A stretch of 64,000 nt of DNA from positions 744,001-808,000 of the forward strand of contig PABP01000038.1 of the NCBI GenBank assembly GCA_002699585.1, written 5' to 3'. Shown piece after piece: positions 670 to 16,343 of this stretch; positions within the stretch are counted from its first letter, which is position 1; every line of letters begins with the position of its first letter. The notes below the pieces were generated by a model. That model saw nothing but the letters and a program-made list of their open reading frames with translations. It ran no database searches and was not told where the DNA came from. The position numbers and the translations under genes are program-made. The stretch is from Anaerolineaceae bacterium (GTDB lineage Bacteria; Chloroflexota; Anaerolineae; Aggregatilineales; Phototrophicaceae).

Positions 670-2006
670 TCCTTGACAGCGTTGGCGCTGAGTTCCTTGC
701 CCTGGATGAGGCGCGATGTACGGCGTCCGAGTTCGACTGCGAAGTTGGTCCCGCGATCCCAGGGGTAGACCTGCGACATGCTAGCCCAATACAGGCCGGG
801 TAGCGGCGTCTTGAGGCCAGGGATGTTTTCGCTGTGGTTGAGTCCGGGCACGGGTTGGGCATAGGGCGCACGGAATACCCAGGTCTTGCGCACCCAACTG
901 GGGTCGAAGTTGGGGTTCACCTGCTTGAGCGGGGCCATAAAACGCTCGGCCAATTCGTCATCGCTTAAAGTGAAATACTCGTGGTCAGGCGCGACATAAT
1001 CGCCCATATAGATGATGTGATCACCGCCGTAGTTGGCCTTATCAAGGAAGTTGGTATGCTCCACCAGCGCCAGATACGGGAACTGGTTACGATTGCGGTC
1101 GGGGCTGTCGGCAGGTAGATTGAGCCAGTAGGTGCCATCGGTCAATAGCTGCTGCTTGAGGGCCGCCACGACCACCACCCCGCCAATGCTTTTAAGGGCC
1201 GCCATCTGCTGGCCATAATCGGTTTCGGCCAGTCCATCCGCCAATTTGAGCATCAAACGCGGTGACATGGTGCTGAGAACCGCGTCAAAAGTCTGGGTCT
1301 GGCCAGCGATGGTCAGCGTGGGTTTGCCATCCTGTGTGCCGATGCCCTCAACAGGCGTGCCCAGCTTGATGGTCGCGCCTTTGGCTTCAATCGCCTTGCC
1401 CAGCAGGTCAAGGAAATTCTGGAAACCACCCTGGAATGTGCCCAGTTTGACCGAACGCGCTTTGACCCGCGCCCACATCCAGGCCATGTTAACCATGTCG
1501 TAGTCTTCACTGAATTTGCCGATCAGCAGGGGCTTGAAGAATTTTTCATAGCCTTCGGTGCCCATGTAGCGACGCATCCAGGCATCGGCTGTGACTTTTT
1601 CCAGGGCGCGCCAGTCAGAGGTCAGCTTGAGATAGACGCCGCCCAATCCCATGCGGAACGTGCCCCACAGTGAAATCGGCAGGAAGATGGCCGACAGGTT
1701 CATCTCACTACGGACGGGCTTGCCGTCGATCCAATAGCTGGTTTTGGGGCGCGGGAACACAACCTTATCGCTGTGGCCAATTTCCTCAATCAGACCGAGC
1801 ATATCGGCATCGCTGGTGAACCAGTGATGATAAAATTTTTCCAGCGACCAATCCCAGGATTCATCTTTGAAACCCGCAGCCAAGCCACCAACGCGGTCGC
1901 CAGCTTCATAGACAGTCACTTGATGGCCCGCGTTCACCAGGTCCCAGGCTGCGGATAACCCGGCAACGCCTGCACCAATAATGCCGATGTGTTGTGTCGT
2001 GGTCAT
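666..2006 (-). CDS. FAD/NAD(P)-dependent amine-oxidase-type oxidoreductase
   Basis: 446 residues. The N-terminus carries a Rossmann dinucleotide-binding motif (IGIIGAGVAGLSAAWDL, residues about 7-23), then an acidic residue ending the second strand (VYEAGDRVGGL), the hallmark of flavin amine oxidases, protoporphyrinogen oxidases and phytoene desaturases. The C-terminus has the usual second FAD contact (PGLYWASMSQVYPWDRGTNFAVELGRR). It probably oxidises or rearranges a lipid or glycan precursor, but the substrate cannot be read from the sequence. It lies 42 bases downstream of the UPF0104 membrane protein on the same strand, so the two are likely co-transcribed; such oxidoreductase/flippase pairs are often found in envelope-lipid clusters (family knowledge, not shown here). 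Confidence 0.8.
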   Translation of the reverse strand: MTTTQHIGIIGAGVAGLSAAWDLVNAGHQVTVYEAGDRVGGLAAGFKDESWDWSLEKFYHHWFTSDADMLGLIEEIGHSDKVVFPRPKTSYWIDGKPVRSEMNLSAIFLPISLWGTFRMGLGGVYLKLTSDWRALEKVTADAWMRRYMGTEGYEKFFKPLLIGKFSEDYDMVNMAWMWARVKARSVKLGTFQGGFQNFLDLLGKAIEAKGATIKLGTPVEGIGTQDGKPTLTIAGQTQTFDAVLSTMSPRLMLKLADGLAETDYGQQMAALKSIGGVVVVAALKQQLLTDGTYWLNLPADSPDRNRNQFPYLALVEHTNFLDKANYGGDHIIYMGDYVAPDHEYFTLSDDELAERFMAPLKQVNPNFDPSWVRKTWVFRAPYAQPVPGLNHSENIPGLKTPLPGLYWASMSQVYPWDRGTNFAVELGRRTSRLIQGKELSANAVKD

Positions 2007-2048
2007 GGTTTTCCTAACTGTGTGCTGTATGGCTACTTATTTATTGAA

Positions 2049-3122
2049 TCAGGTATCGAGGGCTGGTTGGACGTCGATAGATTGGGCTTGCGTCACCGAT
2101 TTCATACTGAGGCCCATGCGCGTCAGGAATAAAAAGCCGACGACGGTCACGGGCAGCCAGATCACGATATGGACGACAATCGCATACGCCAGGGCAATAT
2201 CCTGGGCGATGCCTGCCGCCATCAGCACCGTACTGGCGAAAAATTCATACACGCCGACCTGCCCCGGTGATGCAGGAATCAGACCAGCTAAATTAACCGT
2301 GCCGACGACCAGCAGCGCCACCGCGTAGTTTAATTCCAGGCCGAAAGCCCACATCACCATCCAGTAGACCAGTGCTTCGACAGCCCAGGTCAGGAACGAG
2401 CAGACGATGGTCCCGGCCAGATAGAGTGGGCTGCGTAGCCCTTCCAGGCCAGCGATAACGCCCTCGCCCAAAGAAAGCACTACATCAGCCAGCCGATCCG
2501 GCAAAATCCGGGTTGCCAGCTTCACCAGCGCACGCAGCCAATCGGGACGAGCCGCCAAAACGAAAAAGGTCAGCACGGCCAACCCAAAAACAGGCGCAGC
2601 AATCGATACGACCGACTCCACTTGCGGTGAGGCAATACCAGATACCAGCAAGCCAACGACGATAAAACTAAGCATCACCACGCCATCAAAAGCACGCTCA
2701 ACGACAGCAGTCGTCGCGGCCTGAGCGATGGGCACTTTATGGTTACGTCTCAACAAGTAGACGCGCAGCGCTTCACCAGCGCGCAGGGGATAGACGTTAT
2801 TCCCCATATAGCCGATGGCTACAATTTGCGTCAGGGGCAGCAACGGAATGTGCTTAACGGCCCGCAGGAGAAATTGCCAGCGTAAAGCGATCACAAGCAC
2901 AGCCAGCGCATAGGTCGCCGCACCAATAACAATCCACAGCGGGTTCACCTGGCTGATGCTCGCTAAAAACGTGTCTGGGTGCAATTCACGGAAAGCCAGA
3001 TACAAAAATACGGCACTAATCGCAATCCCGATGAAGATCACCAGGCGTTGGCGGCCTGACCGCTTTGAAGGCTGTTCCATTAAAGGCTGTTCTACAGGCT
3101 GTTCATTCGTAGATGAAGTCAT
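2049..3122 (-). CDS. Lysylphosphatidylglycerol synthase-type (UPF0104) membrane protein
   Basis: 357 residues with about eight hydrophobic helices and the characteristic internal motif PLRAGEALRVYLLRR (residues about 118-132) and GLIPASPGQVGVYEF (about 284-298) of the AglD/MprF-like flippase domain family. This family translocates or helps synthesise membrane lipids or glycosylated lipids; only the membrane domain is present, with no cytosolic aminoacyl-transferase domain, so lysyl-PG synthesis is unlikely. First gene of a probable two-gene operon with the FAD oxidoreductase downstream. Start ATG at 3122; the N-terminal 25 residues are polar before the first helix. Confidence 0.82.
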   Translation of the reverse strand: MTSSTNEQPVEQPLMEQPSKRSGRQRLVIFIGIAISAVFLYLAFRELHPDTFLASISQVNPLWIVIGAATYALAVLVIALRWQFLLRAVKHIPLLPLTQIVAIGYMGNNVYPLRAGEALRVYLLRRNHKVPIAQAATTAVVERAFDGVVMLSFIVVGLLVSGIASPQVESVVSIAAPVFGLAVLTFFVLAARPDWLRALVKLATRILPDRLADVVLSLGEGVIAGLEGLRSPLYLAGTIVCSFLTWAVEALVYWMVMWAFGLELNYAVALLVVGTVNLAGLIPASPGQVGVYEFFASTVLMAAGIAQDIALAYAIVVHIVIWLPVTVVGFLFLTRMGLSMKSVTQAQSIDVQPALDT

Positions 3123-3306
3123 TAGGTCCTATCGAAACGGTTCGCTGTGTGGCTACACTGGTTTTAGACACGCAACTACAAATGCCAAGTTAGGCATTGT
3201 AGCAGTAAGGTACATTCATGAATACAGTGGCGCGGTCGTTTTGCCGCAGGTATGGAATGTTGATAAATGTGTTAGCTGGCATGTTTCAACTTGATCGTTG
3301 CCCGAC

Positions 3307-4860
3307 TTACTCGTCTTCAAAGAAGCCCATGTCGAAGCCTTCCGGCAAATCGGTCATCCCCGGTGCGGGTGGTCCATCCAATTTACGCGGCTGGGTCGGC
3401 GCCTTGGGTTCGATCTGTGGTCGCTGTGTCTCGGTAGCGGATCGGTCCTCATCGGGTGCGGATTCAACCGAAATCATGGGGCCATCCGGCACAGGGTCAT
3501 CTTCGTCAACATCCGGGACATCCCCGCGCATATATCGAATGCGCTCCAACAGCACATGTAAAATACCACCCAATCCCAGGAACAACGCCAGGGCATTAGC
3601 TACCCAACCAACCACGGGCAGCGTCACAATGATGGATAAACATATCGTACCGACAAACAGGGCCATATAAGCGTTAATATTTGAATCGTCACGCGCCCAC
3701 AAAAAGTGTAACAGCAAGCGTCCGAGTGCGAGCGCGAACATAGCACGCGCGACAAAAATGGCAGTCAAATAGAAGATGAGCGCGCCGCCGATGATCAAAA
3801 TTGACAGGGTTAAGGTGGCCACCGTCGCTACCGATTGCAGCCCAATCCACAGCAAAAGCACGATCAGCAGGAAGCTCAAAAACGTCATAATGAGGATGAC
3901 GGGGAACGAAATAATGAAACTAAGCAGGCCGACGCTAACGCTGCCAAAGGCGTGATAACGCATATGTTGCAAGGGGACATGCAGTGATTGCGGAAAAAGC
4001 AGCAAACACAGCGCCCCGGTTATGAACAAGGCCGCCCCTTCCTGAATAGCACTGCGGGCAAACAAGCTCAATGAACCTGGTTCTTCCAAATTAGGGAGCG
4101 GCACAGATTGAGCGGGAATGTAGATTGTATCGCCATCAACCGCGCCAGCAATAACACCCGTCGAAGGTGATTCGTACTGCAAATTGCCGCTTACATTGGC
4201 ATCCGCATCGACATTCAGGCCCGGTTCAGCCAGAGTAAGATCCAGATTGAAGGGGAGCAGCAGGGTCGATACGCTGTTACTGGCCGCACTGGAATCGCCG
4301 ACATGGGCATAGACATCGCTGGTGATAGCCCCTGTGACATTGAAGGTCGATCCCCAGAAATTAACTTCATCACGCACAGTGCCATTGACGATCAACTGGT
4401 AGCCCAGATTGATGATACTGCCTGGTAAAAAAGCGTCCTTGGTAATGGTGGTGCTGATGTCCAGGGCAATTAAGTTGCTGGTGGCAGCACGGCCTACAGC
4501 CTCGTCCATATCCGGGTCAGCAGCAACATTCCAATTGAGGGCGATGCCCCCAAAATGCACATCACCGGTGACGCTGCCGTTGATCGTCAACTGGGAGCTA
4601 GCCAGGTAAATGCTGCCGTTCACATCACCGTTGATTTCCGCACGCAGGGCCGCACCCAAAACGCTGCCGTTCACGGTGCCATCAATAATGAGATCTTCAC
4701 AGAGTGAAAATAAGTTACCCTCAACGACCTCGTCTTCTTCGACGTAGCACTCGTTGCCCTGGCGTATTTCACGGGCAAAAATCAAACTCGGTGGGAGTAT
4801 TAACAGGATGAACAGAAGAAATAGTACCCGAGTAAAGGACCATTTGCGCATGGTTGACAT
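3307..4860 (-). CDS. Membrane-anchored bactofilin-like (polymer-forming) protein
   Basis: 517 residues from ATG 4860 (a TTG nine codons upstream is the alternative). An N-terminal signal sequence or anchor (FTRVLFLLFILLILPPSLIFA) is followed by a beta-helical stretch with short repeating units such as LIIDGTVNGSVLGAALRAEI, INGDVNGSIYLAS and LTINGSVTGDVHFGG, typical of bactofilins. Residues about 285-440 form four or more hydrophobic helices, and the last 85 residues are acidic and Pro-rich, ending DMGFFEDE. Classical bactofilins are cytosolic and lack membrane helices; here the beta-helix precedes the helices behind a signal sequence, so it should face outward. Monocistronic; divergent from the FHA gene at 5103. 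Function beyond an envelope scaffold is inference. Confidence 0.7.
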   Translation of the reverse strand: MSTMRKWSFTRVLFLLFILLILPPSLIFAREIRQGNECYVEEDEVVEGNLFSLCEDLIIDGTVNGSVLGAALRAEINGDVNGSIYLASSQLTINGSVTGDVHFGGIALNWNVAADPDMDEAVGRAATSNLIALDISTTITKDAFLPGSIINLGYQLIVNGTVRDEVNFWGSTFNVTGAITSDVYAHVGDSSAASNSVSTLLLPFNLDLTLAEPGLNVDADANVSGNLQYESPSTGVIAGAVDGDTIYIPAQSVPLPNLEEPGSLSLFARSAIQEGAALFITGALCLLLFPQSLHVPLQHMRYHAFGSVSVGLLSFIISFPVILIMTFLSFLLIVLLLWIGLQSVATVATLTLSILIIGGALIFYLTAIFVARAMFALALGRLLLHFLWARDDSNINAYMALFVGTICLSIIVTLPVVGWVANALALFLGLGGILHVLLERIRYMRGDVPDVDEDDPVPDGPMISVESAPDEDRSATETQRPQIEPKAPTQPRKLDGPPAPGMTDLPEGFDMGFFEDE

Positions 4861-11920: not shown

Positions 11921-12724
11921 ATGGAGCTTACAGCAGTTCGCGATATTGTCATCGACATGGCCAAAGAAGCGGGTGCAATCGCACTCGATTATTATCAGCG
12001 TCCGCTTGTTTACAATACGAAGGCCAGCAACTACGACATCGTCACCGAGGGCGATAAAGCCACCGAACTGGCGATTGTCGCGCAGATCAAAAAACATTTT
12101 CCAGGGCACTATATTCATGGTGAAGAAGGCGGCGGCCAGGGCGACCCGAATGCCGAGTATCATTGGTATGTGGACCCCATCGATGGCACAACCAACTATG
12201 CCCATTGCTTCCCCTATTGGTGTACCAGCATCGCCATGACCACACAGGACCGCCAACCCCTGGTGGGCGTGTTGTATGCCCCCGTCATGAATGATCTGTT
12301 TGTGGCGGTCAAAGGCCAGGGCGCAATGCTCAATGGCCAGCCGATCCATGTAGCTGAGCGCGCAGAACTGGCTGAGTGCATTGTCGTCAGCGGCTTCCCC
12401 TATGATCGCAAGACCAACCCGGATAACAATCAAGCGGAGTGGTCAGCGATGGCGCCCTTGGTACGCGGCCTTCGTCGGTTGGGCAGCGCCGCGCTGGACA
12501 TGGCCAATATCGCCGCTGGTCGACTGGATGGGTACTGGGAACGGGGACTACATCCCTGGGATACGCTGGCGGGCGTTTTGCTCATACAGGAAGCGGGTGG
12601 CAAAGTGTCCACCTATTCGGGCGAACCGAACCCCCAAAATACAGAAGAAGGCCGCTACCTGGTCAGCAACGGCCATGTTCACCAAAAGATGGTGGATGTC
12701 TTGATGAGTGCTCGTAAATCCTAG
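11921..12724 (+). CDS. suhB: Inositol monophosphatase family protein
   Basis: 267 residues, the normal length. The metal-dependent phosphatase signature is complete: the GEEGGG motif (Glu about 66-67), DPIDGTTNYAH (about 86-96), and the C-terminal WDTLAGVLLIQEAGG. These bind Mg2+ and the phosphate of inositol-1-phosphate or a related sugar phosphate. Cytosolic. It has its own start 78 bases after the glycosyltransferase, with TATAGT at 11892-11897 as a possible -10 element. It ends convergently with the first cyclase gene, the two stop codons overlapping by 4 bases. The symbol reflects family similarity only; 3'-phosphoadenosine phosphatase activity is an alternative. Confidence 0.85.
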   Translation: MELTAVRDIVIDMAKEAGAIALDYYQRPLVYNTKASNYDIVTEGDKATELAIVAQIKKHFPGHYIHGEEGGGQGDPNAEYHWYVDPIDGTTNYAHCFPYWCTSIAMTTQDRQPLVGVLYAPVMNDLFVAVKGQGAMLNGQPIHVAERAELAECIVVSGFPYDRKTNPDNNQAEWSAMAPLVRGLRRLGSAALDMANIAAGRLDGYWERGLHPWDTLAGVLLIQEAGGKVSTYSGEPNPQNTEEGRYLVSNGHVHQKMVDVLMSARKS

Positions 12725-14526
12725 CTGATGTCACCGAGCAGGTCGCGTAATTCATCGTCCATGAAGAGCGATCCGGTGCCCTTTTTGCGCTTGATGACGC
12801 GGTACATAACTACATCTTCGTAACCGGGTTTAGGACGCGGGATATTATCTGTCGGCTCGCACTCAAAGACGTCACTGATTTCATCATAAACGGCCTGGCT
12901 GATGATGATCTCGCCTTCTGCGGCTTGCTCTTGCAAATATTTACTGATGTCGTAGGCTTCGCCCAGGGCCGCCAGTTCTTTGCGATCGGGCGAACCCACG
13001 TTACCGATCACCGCCGGGCCAACATGCAAGCCAATGCCATAATATAGGCGCTCATTTTCCGGCATGACCTCATGCTGGGCGATTAGATCCAGCCGCAGTT
13101 GCAGCGCCGCGCTCACCGCCCGCACCACATGGTCTTCCTGCGGATTGAACTGCGTGTTCCACATGCCAGTCACGGCATCACCCAGGTATTTATCCGTGAT
13201 GCCCTCAAACAGGCCAATGGCATCGCTGGCAAGGCTCAGGTATTTATTGATGGCCTGCATCAAATCTTCGGGTTCAAGTTCTTCGCTAAAAGTCGTAAAG
13301 CCGCGCACATCGGCGAACATGCAGGTAATTTCGCGTTCCTGCGGCCGCATATCGATGGAACTGGCATCACGGAAGTGATCAAATAGGGCCGAAGGTAAGA
13401 ACAATTTGACTTCTGCTAACTGCGAGGCCAGCCGCTTTTGCTCGGTCAAGTCACTGACGACGATAGTCACACCTGCGTTAGCGCTGTCGGCATCGCGCAG
13501 GGGGCTGAGGGCCACCGTCCAATAGCGCGTGCCTGCACCGGGCAGTTCCACCGTGAGTTCGATGCGCGACTGCTGGCCCTGGCTATGCGCCAATTGCAAA
13601 TTCTCAGTGAAATGCTCTGGTAGCATGGGCAACAGGTCATCCAACGGTCGATTTTCCGCCACGTCGTCATCAGCCAACCCCAGGATCGAGCGCATAGCGG
13701 CATTGACGATCAAGACCTGATTGTCATGATCGACAGTAATGACGCCATTGGCAATCGAACTGAACAGGTTACGCATGCGGTCACGGATGTCAGTGACTTC
13801 AGCCAACCGGATACGCGAGGCTTCAAATAATTGGGCATTTTCAATAGCGACCGCTGCCTGGTCAGCAAAGGCCTTGAGCACGTCCATTTCTTGCTCGCGG
13901 AAGACACCGGGCATAAAGCGGTTGTCGCAATAGGCCACGCCGATGACCTCATCGCGGACCTTAAGCGGTACAGCGACGATACTGCGCAAGTTGTAGCCAG
14001 CAATACTCTGGCTGGAATTATAGCGCTGGTCAGCGGCGGCGTTGTCTGTCAGGATCGCTTCGCCCTTCTCAGCGACATCGCGCACAATCGTCTTGCTGAC
14101 AATGAGTCCCTGGCTGTTATCGAGCTGGGCCTGATCCATGCCACGCGCGGTACGAAATTCCAGTTCGCCTGTGTGTTTGCTCCTGAGGGCGATGTATCCG
14201 CGCTCAGCACGGGTCAGGGCAATGACGGTATCCATCACCTGATTCAACACATCATCGGTACTCAGGGAGGAATTAATCAGCGCGCTGGTATCTGCTAAAG
14301 CGCGCAAGGAACGCAGCTCAACCAGATTATCGACCATCGTACGACTGAGATTATCGACCTGGGATTTGAGCGTGCGTAAATTATCGAGCGACCCCGATGG
14401 CAAACTCATCCCACGCTGACGCAGCAGGTCGCGCTGGGTACGCAAAAGCTGCGTCACATCATCAATTTTTTGAGCGAGCTTGCTCAGCCCTTCCGGCTGT
14501 TTATTCTGATCGGGTGTGTTATTCAT
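12721..14526 (-). CDS. GAF-PAS-class III nucleotide cyclase, C1-like half (metal Asp present, Asn/Arg lost)
   Basis: 601 residues: coiled N-terminus (1-65), GAF domain (about 75-235), PAS-like domain (about 245-365), and class III cyclase domain (about 395-570). Both metal-binding aspartates are present, D406 in FADVRGFT and D450 in KYLGDAVTG. The transition-state Asn and Arg, normally in GDxVNxAxRL, are replaced: the segment is GEAYDISKYLQ, giving D526 and Y530, and the base-specificity position is Ala519. It therefore cannot complete a homodimeric site by the usual chemistry. It sits 65 bases downstream of a paralogue with the opposite losses, and a C1/C2-type heterodimer is the natural inference. 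No membrane segments, so cytosolic. Confidence 0.82.
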   Translation of the reverse strand: MNNTPDQNKQPEGLSKLAQKIDDVTQLLRTQRDLLRQRGMSLPSGSLDNLRTLKSQVDNLSRTMVDNLVELRSLRALADTSALINSSLSTDDVLNQVMDTVIALTRAERGYIALRSKHTGELEFRTARGMDQAQLDNSQGLIVSKTIVRDVAEKGEAILTDNAAADQRYNSSQSIAGYNLRSIVAVPLKVRDEVIGVAYCDNRFMPGVFREQEMDVLKAFADQAAVAIENAQLFEASRIRLAEVTDIRDRMRNLFSSIANGVITVDHDNQVLIVNAAMRSILGLADDDVAENRPLDDLLPMLPEHFTENLQLAHSQGQQSRIELTVELPGAGTRYWTVALSPLRDADSANAGVTIVVSDLTEQKRLASQLAEVKLFLPSALFDHFRDASSIDMRPQEREITCMFADVRGFTTFSEELEPEDLMQAINKYLSLASDAIGLFEGITDKYLGDAVTGMWNTQFNPQEDHVVRAVSAALQLRLDLIAQHEVMPENERLYYGIGLHVGPAVIGNVGSPDRKELAALGEAYDISKYLQEQAAEGEIIISQAVYDEISDVFECEPTDNIPRPKPGYEDVVMYRVIKRKKGTGSLFMDDELRDLLGDIS

Positions 14527-14591
14527 AGCAACCCATTACCTTAAATGGCACATTTCGATGGCATATACGGATGCAGAGGACGTATCCGGCG

Positions 14592-16343
14592 CTAGTCTGC
14601 GGCCGAGACCTCATAAATTTCGATACCTTGTTGGCGGCCCTTCACCTGAATCGTTCCTAACTCGTTAAAGTGCAGGCCATCCTGGGTGGTCAGCAGTTCG
14701 CAAGTGGCTTCACTGACGATGATCTGGCCCATTGCCGCATTTTCTTCCAGCCGCTTGGCCGTGTTGATCGTATCGCCAATAGCAGTGAAGTCGCGGCGGC
14801 TGGGGCTGCCCACGTTACCGAGGGTCGCTACACCGGTATGAATCCCTGCCCGGTAAGGCCAAACCTCCGGGTTGATGCCCTCTTGTTGGTACAAATTGAG
14901 GAAGGCACGGTGCATATCCAGCGCGCAGGCCAACGCCCGGTCGGGGTGATCTTCCGATGGGTTCAGGCGCGTATTGAATAGGGCCATGACTTCGTTACCC
15001 ATGTATTTATCCACGATGCCCCCGTAACGATGCACGCAGTCGGTAGCAGCGCTCAAATATTGGTTGAGCATATCGAGCATTTGACGTGGGCTAACGTGCT
15101 TGAGACTGGCAAACGAACGCGCTTCCACAAACAAGCAGGTGACAATACGGCGTTCCCCACCCAGCGAAATGCGGCTGATCTCATGAATATTGTCGACCAT
15201 CTGCGGCGGCAGGTAGGTCTTGGTGATACGGATTTGCTGCTCTTGTTCGCGCAGGTCGGTGACATCATCCAGCACAACCGCCACACCGCGTGTGGTCTCT
15301 TCGGCATCGCGCAAGGGGCTGAGCTTGATGTTCAGCGCACGGCGACCCTCAGACGTGACGATTTCGCCTTCGATCTGCTGAGCCGCTCCTTCTTCACGAA
15401 TCTGGGCCAGGGCCTGGTCAATATCGGCGGTGATGCGCGGCAGCAAATTGCTCATCGGCTGGCCAATAAAACTCTCCGACTGGAAGTCGAGAATTTGGGT
15501 CGCAGCGCGGTTGATTGTTGTAATCAGATCCTCGGAATTGGTGGCGATGATACCGCTGGCAATCGAGGCGAAGACGCTGTCCATCAATTCCTTGACGCGC
15601 GTAATTTCCCCTAGCAGCAATTGGATACGCTCGAATAGACGCGCATTGGAAATCGCAACGGCGGCGGTATTGGCGAAAGCCGTCAGCGTGCTGCGCTCGC
15701 GGTGGGTAAAGACGCCGGACTGCATGCGGTTATCGACGTAAACCACACCAAGAATATCGTCTTTGTACAGCAGTGGCACACACAAGACCGAGCGCATGTT
15801 CAAGTTGGCGATGCTGACGTTGTCCATCAAACGCTCATCCTGGTAGGCATCATCGGCCAGAAGGGGTTCGCGCTTGGTGATGACTTCCTTGATAATGCTC
15901 GTGCTGACCTCTGGCGTGGCTCCTGGTGCAGTTTGGCCCGTGAGAATTTCCTCGCGGATAATGCGGAAGACGAGCTGCTTTGTTTCTTTGTTGAGCAAAA
16001 TGAGATAGCCACGTTCGGCGCGTGTCAGTGCAATGACCACATCCATCGTGCGTTGGAGGACCGTATCGACATCCAGTTCACTGTTGAGCTGGGTAGACAT
16101 ATCGGCCAGGGCGCGCAACTGGCGCAATTCAGCCTGCTCCTCGACAAAACGATCCGCCAATCCGGCTAAGTCTTTGCCAATGGAATCCAAGGTTGTCATG
16201 ACCATCGGCGGCAGGTTCATGCCGCGTTGCTTGAGGATGGCTTTCTGGTTCTTTAGCGATTCAGTGATGTCTGCTGCAAGCAACTGGCATTTTTGCAAAT
16301 CGCGGATCATGCGCGTTTGCGTTGTCAGTTTGGGTTCCGCCAT
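14592..16343 (-). CDS. GAF-PAS-class III nucleotide cyclase, C2-like half (Asn/Arg present, metal Asp lost)
   Basis: 583 residues from ATG 16343 (MAEPK); an in-frame TTG at 16394 is less likely. Architecture matches the downstream paralogue: coiled start, GAF (about 75-235), PAS-like (about 245-365), cyclase (about 395-570), with long shared stretches such as ELRQLRALADMSTQLNSEL and VIALTRAERGY. Here the metal positions are changed, E407 in LFVEARSF and N450 in KYMGNEVMALF, while the base-binding Lys446, Thr520 and the transition-state N527 and R531 (GDTINTAKRLE) are kept. This is the residue set of a C2 domain. First gene of the pair in transcription order; TATAAT (minus strand, 16385-16380) lies upstream. 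Confidence 0.82.
   Translation of the reverse strand: MAEPKLTTQTRMIRDLQKCQLLAADITESLKNQKAILKQRGMNLPPMVMTTLDSIGKDLAGLADRFVEEQAELRQLRALADMSTQLNSELDVDTVLQRTMDVVIALTRAERGYLILLNKETKQLVFRIIREEILTGQTAPGATPEVSTSIIKEVITKREPLLADDAYQDERLMDNVSIANLNMRSVLCVPLLYKDDILGVVYVDNRMQSGVFTHRERSTLTAFANTAAVAISNARLFERIQLLLGEITRVKELMDSVFASIASGIIATNSEDLITTINRAATQILDFQSESFIGQPMSNLLPRITADIDQALAQIREEGAAQQIEGEIVTSEGRRALNIKLSPLRDAEETTRGVAVVLDDVTDLREQEQQIRITKTYLPPQMVDNIHEISRISLGGERRIVTCLFVEARSFASLKHVSPRQMLDMLNQYLSAATDCVHRYGGIVDKYMGNEVMALFNTRLNPSEDHPDRALACALDMHRAFLNLYQQEGINPEVWPYRAGIHTGVATLGNVGSPSRRDFTAIGDTINTAKRLEENAAMGQIIVSEATCELLTTQDGLHFNELGTIQVKGRQQGIEIYEVSAAD

Follow-up and report, generated by a model that had tools for sequence, protein, structure and literature searches.

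The window analysed here, a stretch of 64,000 nucleotides from an Anaerolineaceae bacterium, carries two adjacent cyclase-like genes on the minus strand, separated by a gap of 65 bp. The upstream gene, A (14592..16343), starts with ATG and encodes a protein of 583 aa, and the downstream gene, B (12721..14526), encodes a protein of 601 aa. Both were delimited from their open reading frames and Pfam, and both have the order coiled coil, GAF, PAS, cyclase, with A resembling the C2 half and B the C1 half of a two-part cyclase. Pfam found a GAF, a PAS and a Guanylate_cyc domain in each, all exceeding cut-offs. In A, the GAF domain covers residues 90-233 (15645..16076, minus strand; PF01590), the PAS domain residues 253-362 (15258..15587, minus strand; PF00989/PF08448) and the class III cyclase domain residues 395-583 (14595..15161, minus strand; PF00211, Foldseek). 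The corresponding domains of B cover residues 88-229 (13840..14265, minus strand; PF13185/PF01590), 250-365 (13432..13779, minus strand; PF00989/PF08448) and 394-582 (12781..13347, minus strand; PF00211, Foldseek). The PF00211 matches (E-values of 1e-19 for A and 9e-14 for B) pass the cut-off and place both proteins among the class III catalytic domains.

The two proteins are paralogues, with 37% identity across 546 columns (E 1e-121); this alignment and the Pfam results bear out the original prediction that the adjoining paralogues have a GAF-PAS-cyclase layout in common. AlphaFold models of the two monomers (mean pLDDT of 82 for A and 85 for B) show the same succession of a helical N-terminus, GAF, long helix, PAS, linker helix and cyclase fold. 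Foldseek matched the catalytic domain of A to CyaC, PaCyaB and Cya2, and that of B to CyaC and PaCyaB. No membrane domain was found in the open reading frames, Pfam matches or AlphaFold monomers of either protein. None of the genes flanking the pair in the window (inositol monophosphatase, a PucR regulator and others) recurs beside relatives. Clustering of the flanking open reading frames at named loci yielded small clusters only, except for one large cluster containing frames antisense to the cyclases, and promoter and terminator scans gave counts close to chance.

The original prediction named the catalytic residues kept and lost in each chain, and every assignment proved exact. The counts given with them cover all proteins read, 83 A and 84 B, and all codons lie on the minus strand. 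In A, metal position 1, an Asp in single-copy relatives, is E407 (15123..15125; D 38, E 38, other 7), and metal position 2 is lost, being N450 (14994..14996; N 41, S 19, T 18, others 5, Asp 0). The base-recognition residues K446 (15006..15008; 83/83) and T520 (14784..14786; T 76, S 7) are kept, as are the transition-state residues N527 (14763..14765; 83/83) and R531 (14751..14753; 83/83). In B, both metal Asps are kept, D406 (13309..13311) and D450 (13177..13179), each in 84/84 proteins. The base position, A519 (12970..12972), is lost in the window and variable in B generally (T 48, A 17, S 16, G 2, N 1). The transition-state Asn is replaced by D526 (12949..12951), with Asn in 15/84 proteins and ten different residues elsewhere, and the transition-state Arg by Y530 (12937..12939), a position held by L, Y, K, F, I, W, Q, S or T and by Arg in 0/84. 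The window's B also has K446, and this Lys is kept in 83/84 B proteins despite a site that is expected to be dead, perhaps for a structural role. The complete set of two Asp, Lys, Asp/Thr, Asn and Arg is therefore absent from each chain alone and present in A and B together, and the losses are total only at metal position 2 of A and the Arg of B.

A similar division was found beyond these positions. We took as further active-site columns those at least 90% conserved among single-copy relatives. Retained in B only are the loop after the first Asp (G409, F410, S414, E415, E420) and A451 beside the second, columns on the metal and triphosphate side of known class III structures (tmAC, CyaC). Retained in A only are M453, D524, the Asn, the Arg and the Gly in the KG hairpin at the C-terminus, which lie largely on the base and transition-state side of these structures.

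Conceivably, one chain is active as a homodimer, more likely B than A, with the other serving as a dedicated regulatory pseudocyclase. B retains both metal Asps, Asn is present in 15 of the 84 B proteins, and some class III cyclases remain active with other residues at the base or Asn position. However, the transition-state Arg never occurs in B and the second metal Asp never occurs in A, and the corresponding single mutants of Rv1625c are described as inactive (PMC4821796). A homodimer of B would also leave the invariance of the Asn and Arg of A without a reason, and we regard this explanation as highly improbable.

We surveyed 154 genomes of the order for such genes and found a strong match in 144, with at least two matches in 126. 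Family f2 stood apart, with exactly one match in all nine of its genomes. Nine genomes outside f2 also had one match; these look like contig breaks, with a whole or partial partner visible for most, and in two of the single-match genomes (G018 and G073) the match lies at a contig end. Complementary A and B residues were present in all 78 further two-gene loci, which span 45 genera and 6 families; the two genes always share a strand, with A the upstream one. With the window included, the metal Asps are on one chain (B) and the base, Asn and Arg residues on the other (A) at 79 loci, with zero exceptions. In 79 more loci, taken from genomes of named species (with many contigs identical to those above), the pattern holds in every case with two complete genes. 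A chance pattern in one genome is ruled out by the 78 further loci. In one genome of family f6 (G047; L059 / L216), the A gene is split into separate frames and has Glu at metal position 2, and this broken gene may reflect assembly error or decay.

Outside the order, matching genomes of the class mostly carry one such gene. We fetched 40 loci from other orders, and the 39 that were readable at all six positions had D-K-D-T/S-N-R (39/39), the fortieth ending at a contig edge before the Arg. The f2 loci were likewise complete (8/8 read), which brings the single-copy relatives with a full catalytic set to 47/47. One gene with a complete set, as in the homodimeric bacterial type, is thus what f2 and the relatives from other orders have, and what neither A nor B has. 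We also looked for homologous pairs in which both copies have full sets or the losses fall at random, a finding that would have spoken against the original prediction, and found none: 78/78 are complementary with the same polarity, and the singles are complete. A distant single cyclase from a Thermoflexia record (L222:4110-6212) has His at the transition-state Arg position and keeps the remaining catalytic residues.

A full-length tree, built by a quick search with SH-aLRT support and no bootstrap, placed the f2 singles as sister to A and B together (SH-aLRT 98), with A forming one clade (100) and B another (97). Within each of these, the subtrees track the family groupings. This topology points to one duplication after the split from f2, with the losses fixed before the other families radiated. 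The duplication and the main losses were probably a single event, and the 78 pairs should therefore not be counted as independent of one another. A and B as unrelated recruits can be dismissed, as they are sister clades in the tree.

The fewest changes on the tree differed sharply between kept and lost positions. In A, they came to 11 at metal position 2, 7 at metal position 1 and 0 at the Lys, Asn and Arg; in B, they came to 17 at the Asn, 12 at the Arg, 10 at the Thr and 0 at both Asps and the Lys. Judged from these substitution patterns, the kept positions are under strong purifying selection and the lost positions free. Pseudogenes or drift are ruled out by the 0 changes at retained sites. 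A further possibility is that A and B are both catalytically dead pseudocyclases, acting as regulators or scaffolds that sense through GAF and PAS without cyclic nucleotide synthesis. Each single chain does lack essential residues, and the genome of the window encodes another complete cyclase. Yet an exactly complementary set is not expected of dead proteins, nor are 0 changes at the retained residues against 7-17 at the lost ones, a contrast that one shared site requires. Moreover, in genus g17 the pair is the sole source of class III cyclase domains. We therefore consider two dead proteins very improbable.

Our combined findings support the core of the original prediction and are best explained if A and B together make up a class III adenylyl cyclase that is an obligate heterodimer with a single working active site and that arose by a single tandem duplication and complementary loss (probability of roughly 0.88). 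From class III biochemistry we strongly infer that the chains would form a heterodimer with a single site, that the product would be cAMP and that each chain would be inactive alone. B would take the C1 role, contributing the two Asps that bind metal as well as the triphosphate loop. A would take the C2 role: its Lys446 and Thr520 would recognise adenine, its Asn527 and Arg531 would serve the transition state, and it would also contribute the KG hairpin at its C-terminus. Each A:B pair would then have one catalytic site, and the pseudosymmetric site, made of the metal side of A and the base side of B, would be dead twice over, lacking both sets. Acting through the long helices, the GAF and PAS domains of the two chains may determine how the catalytic domains are placed relative to each other. 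As to origin, a complete GAF-PAS-cyclase would have been duplicated in tandem in an ancestor shared by most members of this Anaerolineae order; the copies would then have undergone complementary loss and been retained as a unit ever since.

The heterodimer could also be real and make cGMP instead of cAMP. Substrate choice depends on two side chains, and the guanylyl cyclase Cya2 is among the closest structures. Nonetheless, K446 and T520 of A conform to the Lys plus Asp/Thr combination that marks adenylyl over guanylyl cyclases (Lys in 83/83 and Thr/Ser in 83/83 A proteins). In our alignments the base positions are Lys and Thr in both PaCyaB and CyaC and Glu and Gly in Cya2, so that A resembles the adenylyl cyclases, and a cGMP product seems improbable.

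The original prediction also held that the two chains are controlled by two different GAF/PAS inputs, and in this it was not supported as stated. The GAF domains of the window pair are 45% identical and the PAS domains about 30%; in related families, GAF identity between A and B reaches 83% in G041 (f6) and 73-74% in f4. The catalytic stretches of the G041 and f4 pairs are 36-51% identical. Loci that combine near-identical GAF domains (73-83%) with differing catalytic domains are L033 (A 3219-4697, B 1489-3252, minus strand), L036, L038 and L117. In a tree of the catalytic domains only, A and B remain single clades. In a tree of GAF and PAS, they intermix by family, a grouping that is strongly supported for G041 (99) and less well for f3 and f7. 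The simplest reading is that gene conversion may have acted between the tandem copies, with the sensor domains tolerating it and the catalytic domains not doing so. Homogenisation confined to the sensor part strengthens the case for a selected catalytic asymmetry, and conversion of the sensors between copies weakens two distinct inputs as a general rule. The inputs to A and B may be alike, or may act jointly.

The number of other cyclases in these genomes varies. The window's genome has a third cyclase, which is complete (DKDTNR, 532 aa, G000:C23), and 9 cNMP-binding domains. In genus g17, A and B are the sole PF00211 domains in 13 of the 14 genomes searched, and the fourteenth has one extra marginal match below the cut-off. 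In genera g2, g11 and g19 both A and B are gone, and these have no other PF00211 domain. Across our survey of the order, contig ends aside, we found no genome that lacked one partner while keeping the other intact.

As proof of cAMP use, cNMP-binding proteins do not suffice, since genomes with no PF00211 domain retain 2-3. At three loci (L239, L241 and L242) in genomes whose only PF00211 domains are A and B (G017, G033 and G111), a cNMP-binding domain is found on a SulP (sulfate permease)-STAS protein, where it carries the GE...RTA/RSA phosphate-binding motif. This protein is a candidate cyclic-nucleotide-controlled anion transporter; it also occurs at L248, in a genome without any cyclase, and its link to the pair is therefore not specific. 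In the window's genome, an unusual fusion joins PIG-L (GlcNAc-PI de-N-acetylase) to a cNMP-binding domain (L247:663-1850) and is a possible cyclic-nucleotide effector. In the animal enzymes, forskolin occupies the pseudosymmetric site. More tentatively, and with considerable doubt, the dead pseudosite of A:B could be a pocket for a native regulatory ligand, the split could have bought single-site allosteric control, and in the genomes where it is the sole class III cyclase the pair might act on the SulP-STAS-cNMP transporter.

Animal tmAC and sGC are heteromeric, with one active site and a pseudosymmetric cavity that is possibly regulatory (PMC3591389). In the mammalian tmAC C1/C2 pair, the metal Asps come from one domain and the base and transition-state residues from the other, giving one working and one degenerate site (PMC8815786; PMC3591389), the arrangement that we propose for A:B. 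The mammalian halves are, however, on one membrane-bound chain, while A and B are separate genes with GAF and PAS and no membrane domain; the fused halves and two 6-helix membrane domains of the mammalian type are not found in them. The tmAC duplication and fusion have been placed in an early eukaryotic cell (PMC9552081). A and B go back to a separate duplication that took place within a bacterial order. The alpha and beta subunits of sGC are likewise two separate homologous chains with one site, alpha supplying the metal Asps (PMC3591389), but sGC is eukaryotic and haem-NO regulated, makes cGMP and has H-NOX/PAS sensors rather than GAF/PAS.

Among bacterial enzymes, CyaC, PaCyaB and Cya2 have the solved catalytic domains closest to A and B in both sequence and fold, but they are homodimers of complete chains, unlike A and B, which are incomplete singly. 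Bacterial class III cyclases have been stated to need homodimerisation, and in Rv1625c the D300A (metal) and R376A (Arg) mutants are each described as inactive, with activity restored by co-expression (PMC4821796). That engineered pair has two equivalent defects, one per chain, but is a laboratory product derived from a single homodimer, whereas the A/B split is natural and maintained across families. The rhodopsin guanylyl cyclases NeoR/RGC of chytrids are also obligate heterodimers of two sensor-cyclase chains (PMC8815786), as A:B is predicted to be, but they are eukaryotic and membrane-bound, and RGC1 and RGC2 keep all catalytic residues, their obligation lying elsewhere (PMC8815786).

We found no earlier bacterial case of this kind in the open-access papers that we searched. 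Our best reading is that A and B would constitute an independently evolved, two-gene bacterial cyclase of the C1/C2 type. In published descriptions, bacterial class III cyclases are homodimers, and heterodimers with a single site are eukaryotic. Both states occur in this order of Chloroflexota: sister family f2 has the complete single-copy gene, which is also found outside the order, and about 126 genomes have the split pair. The transition from homodimer to heterodimer thus becomes testable with living representatives. The pair would offer soluble bacterial analogues of C1 and C2 for structural work and may reveal the purpose of the degenerate site.
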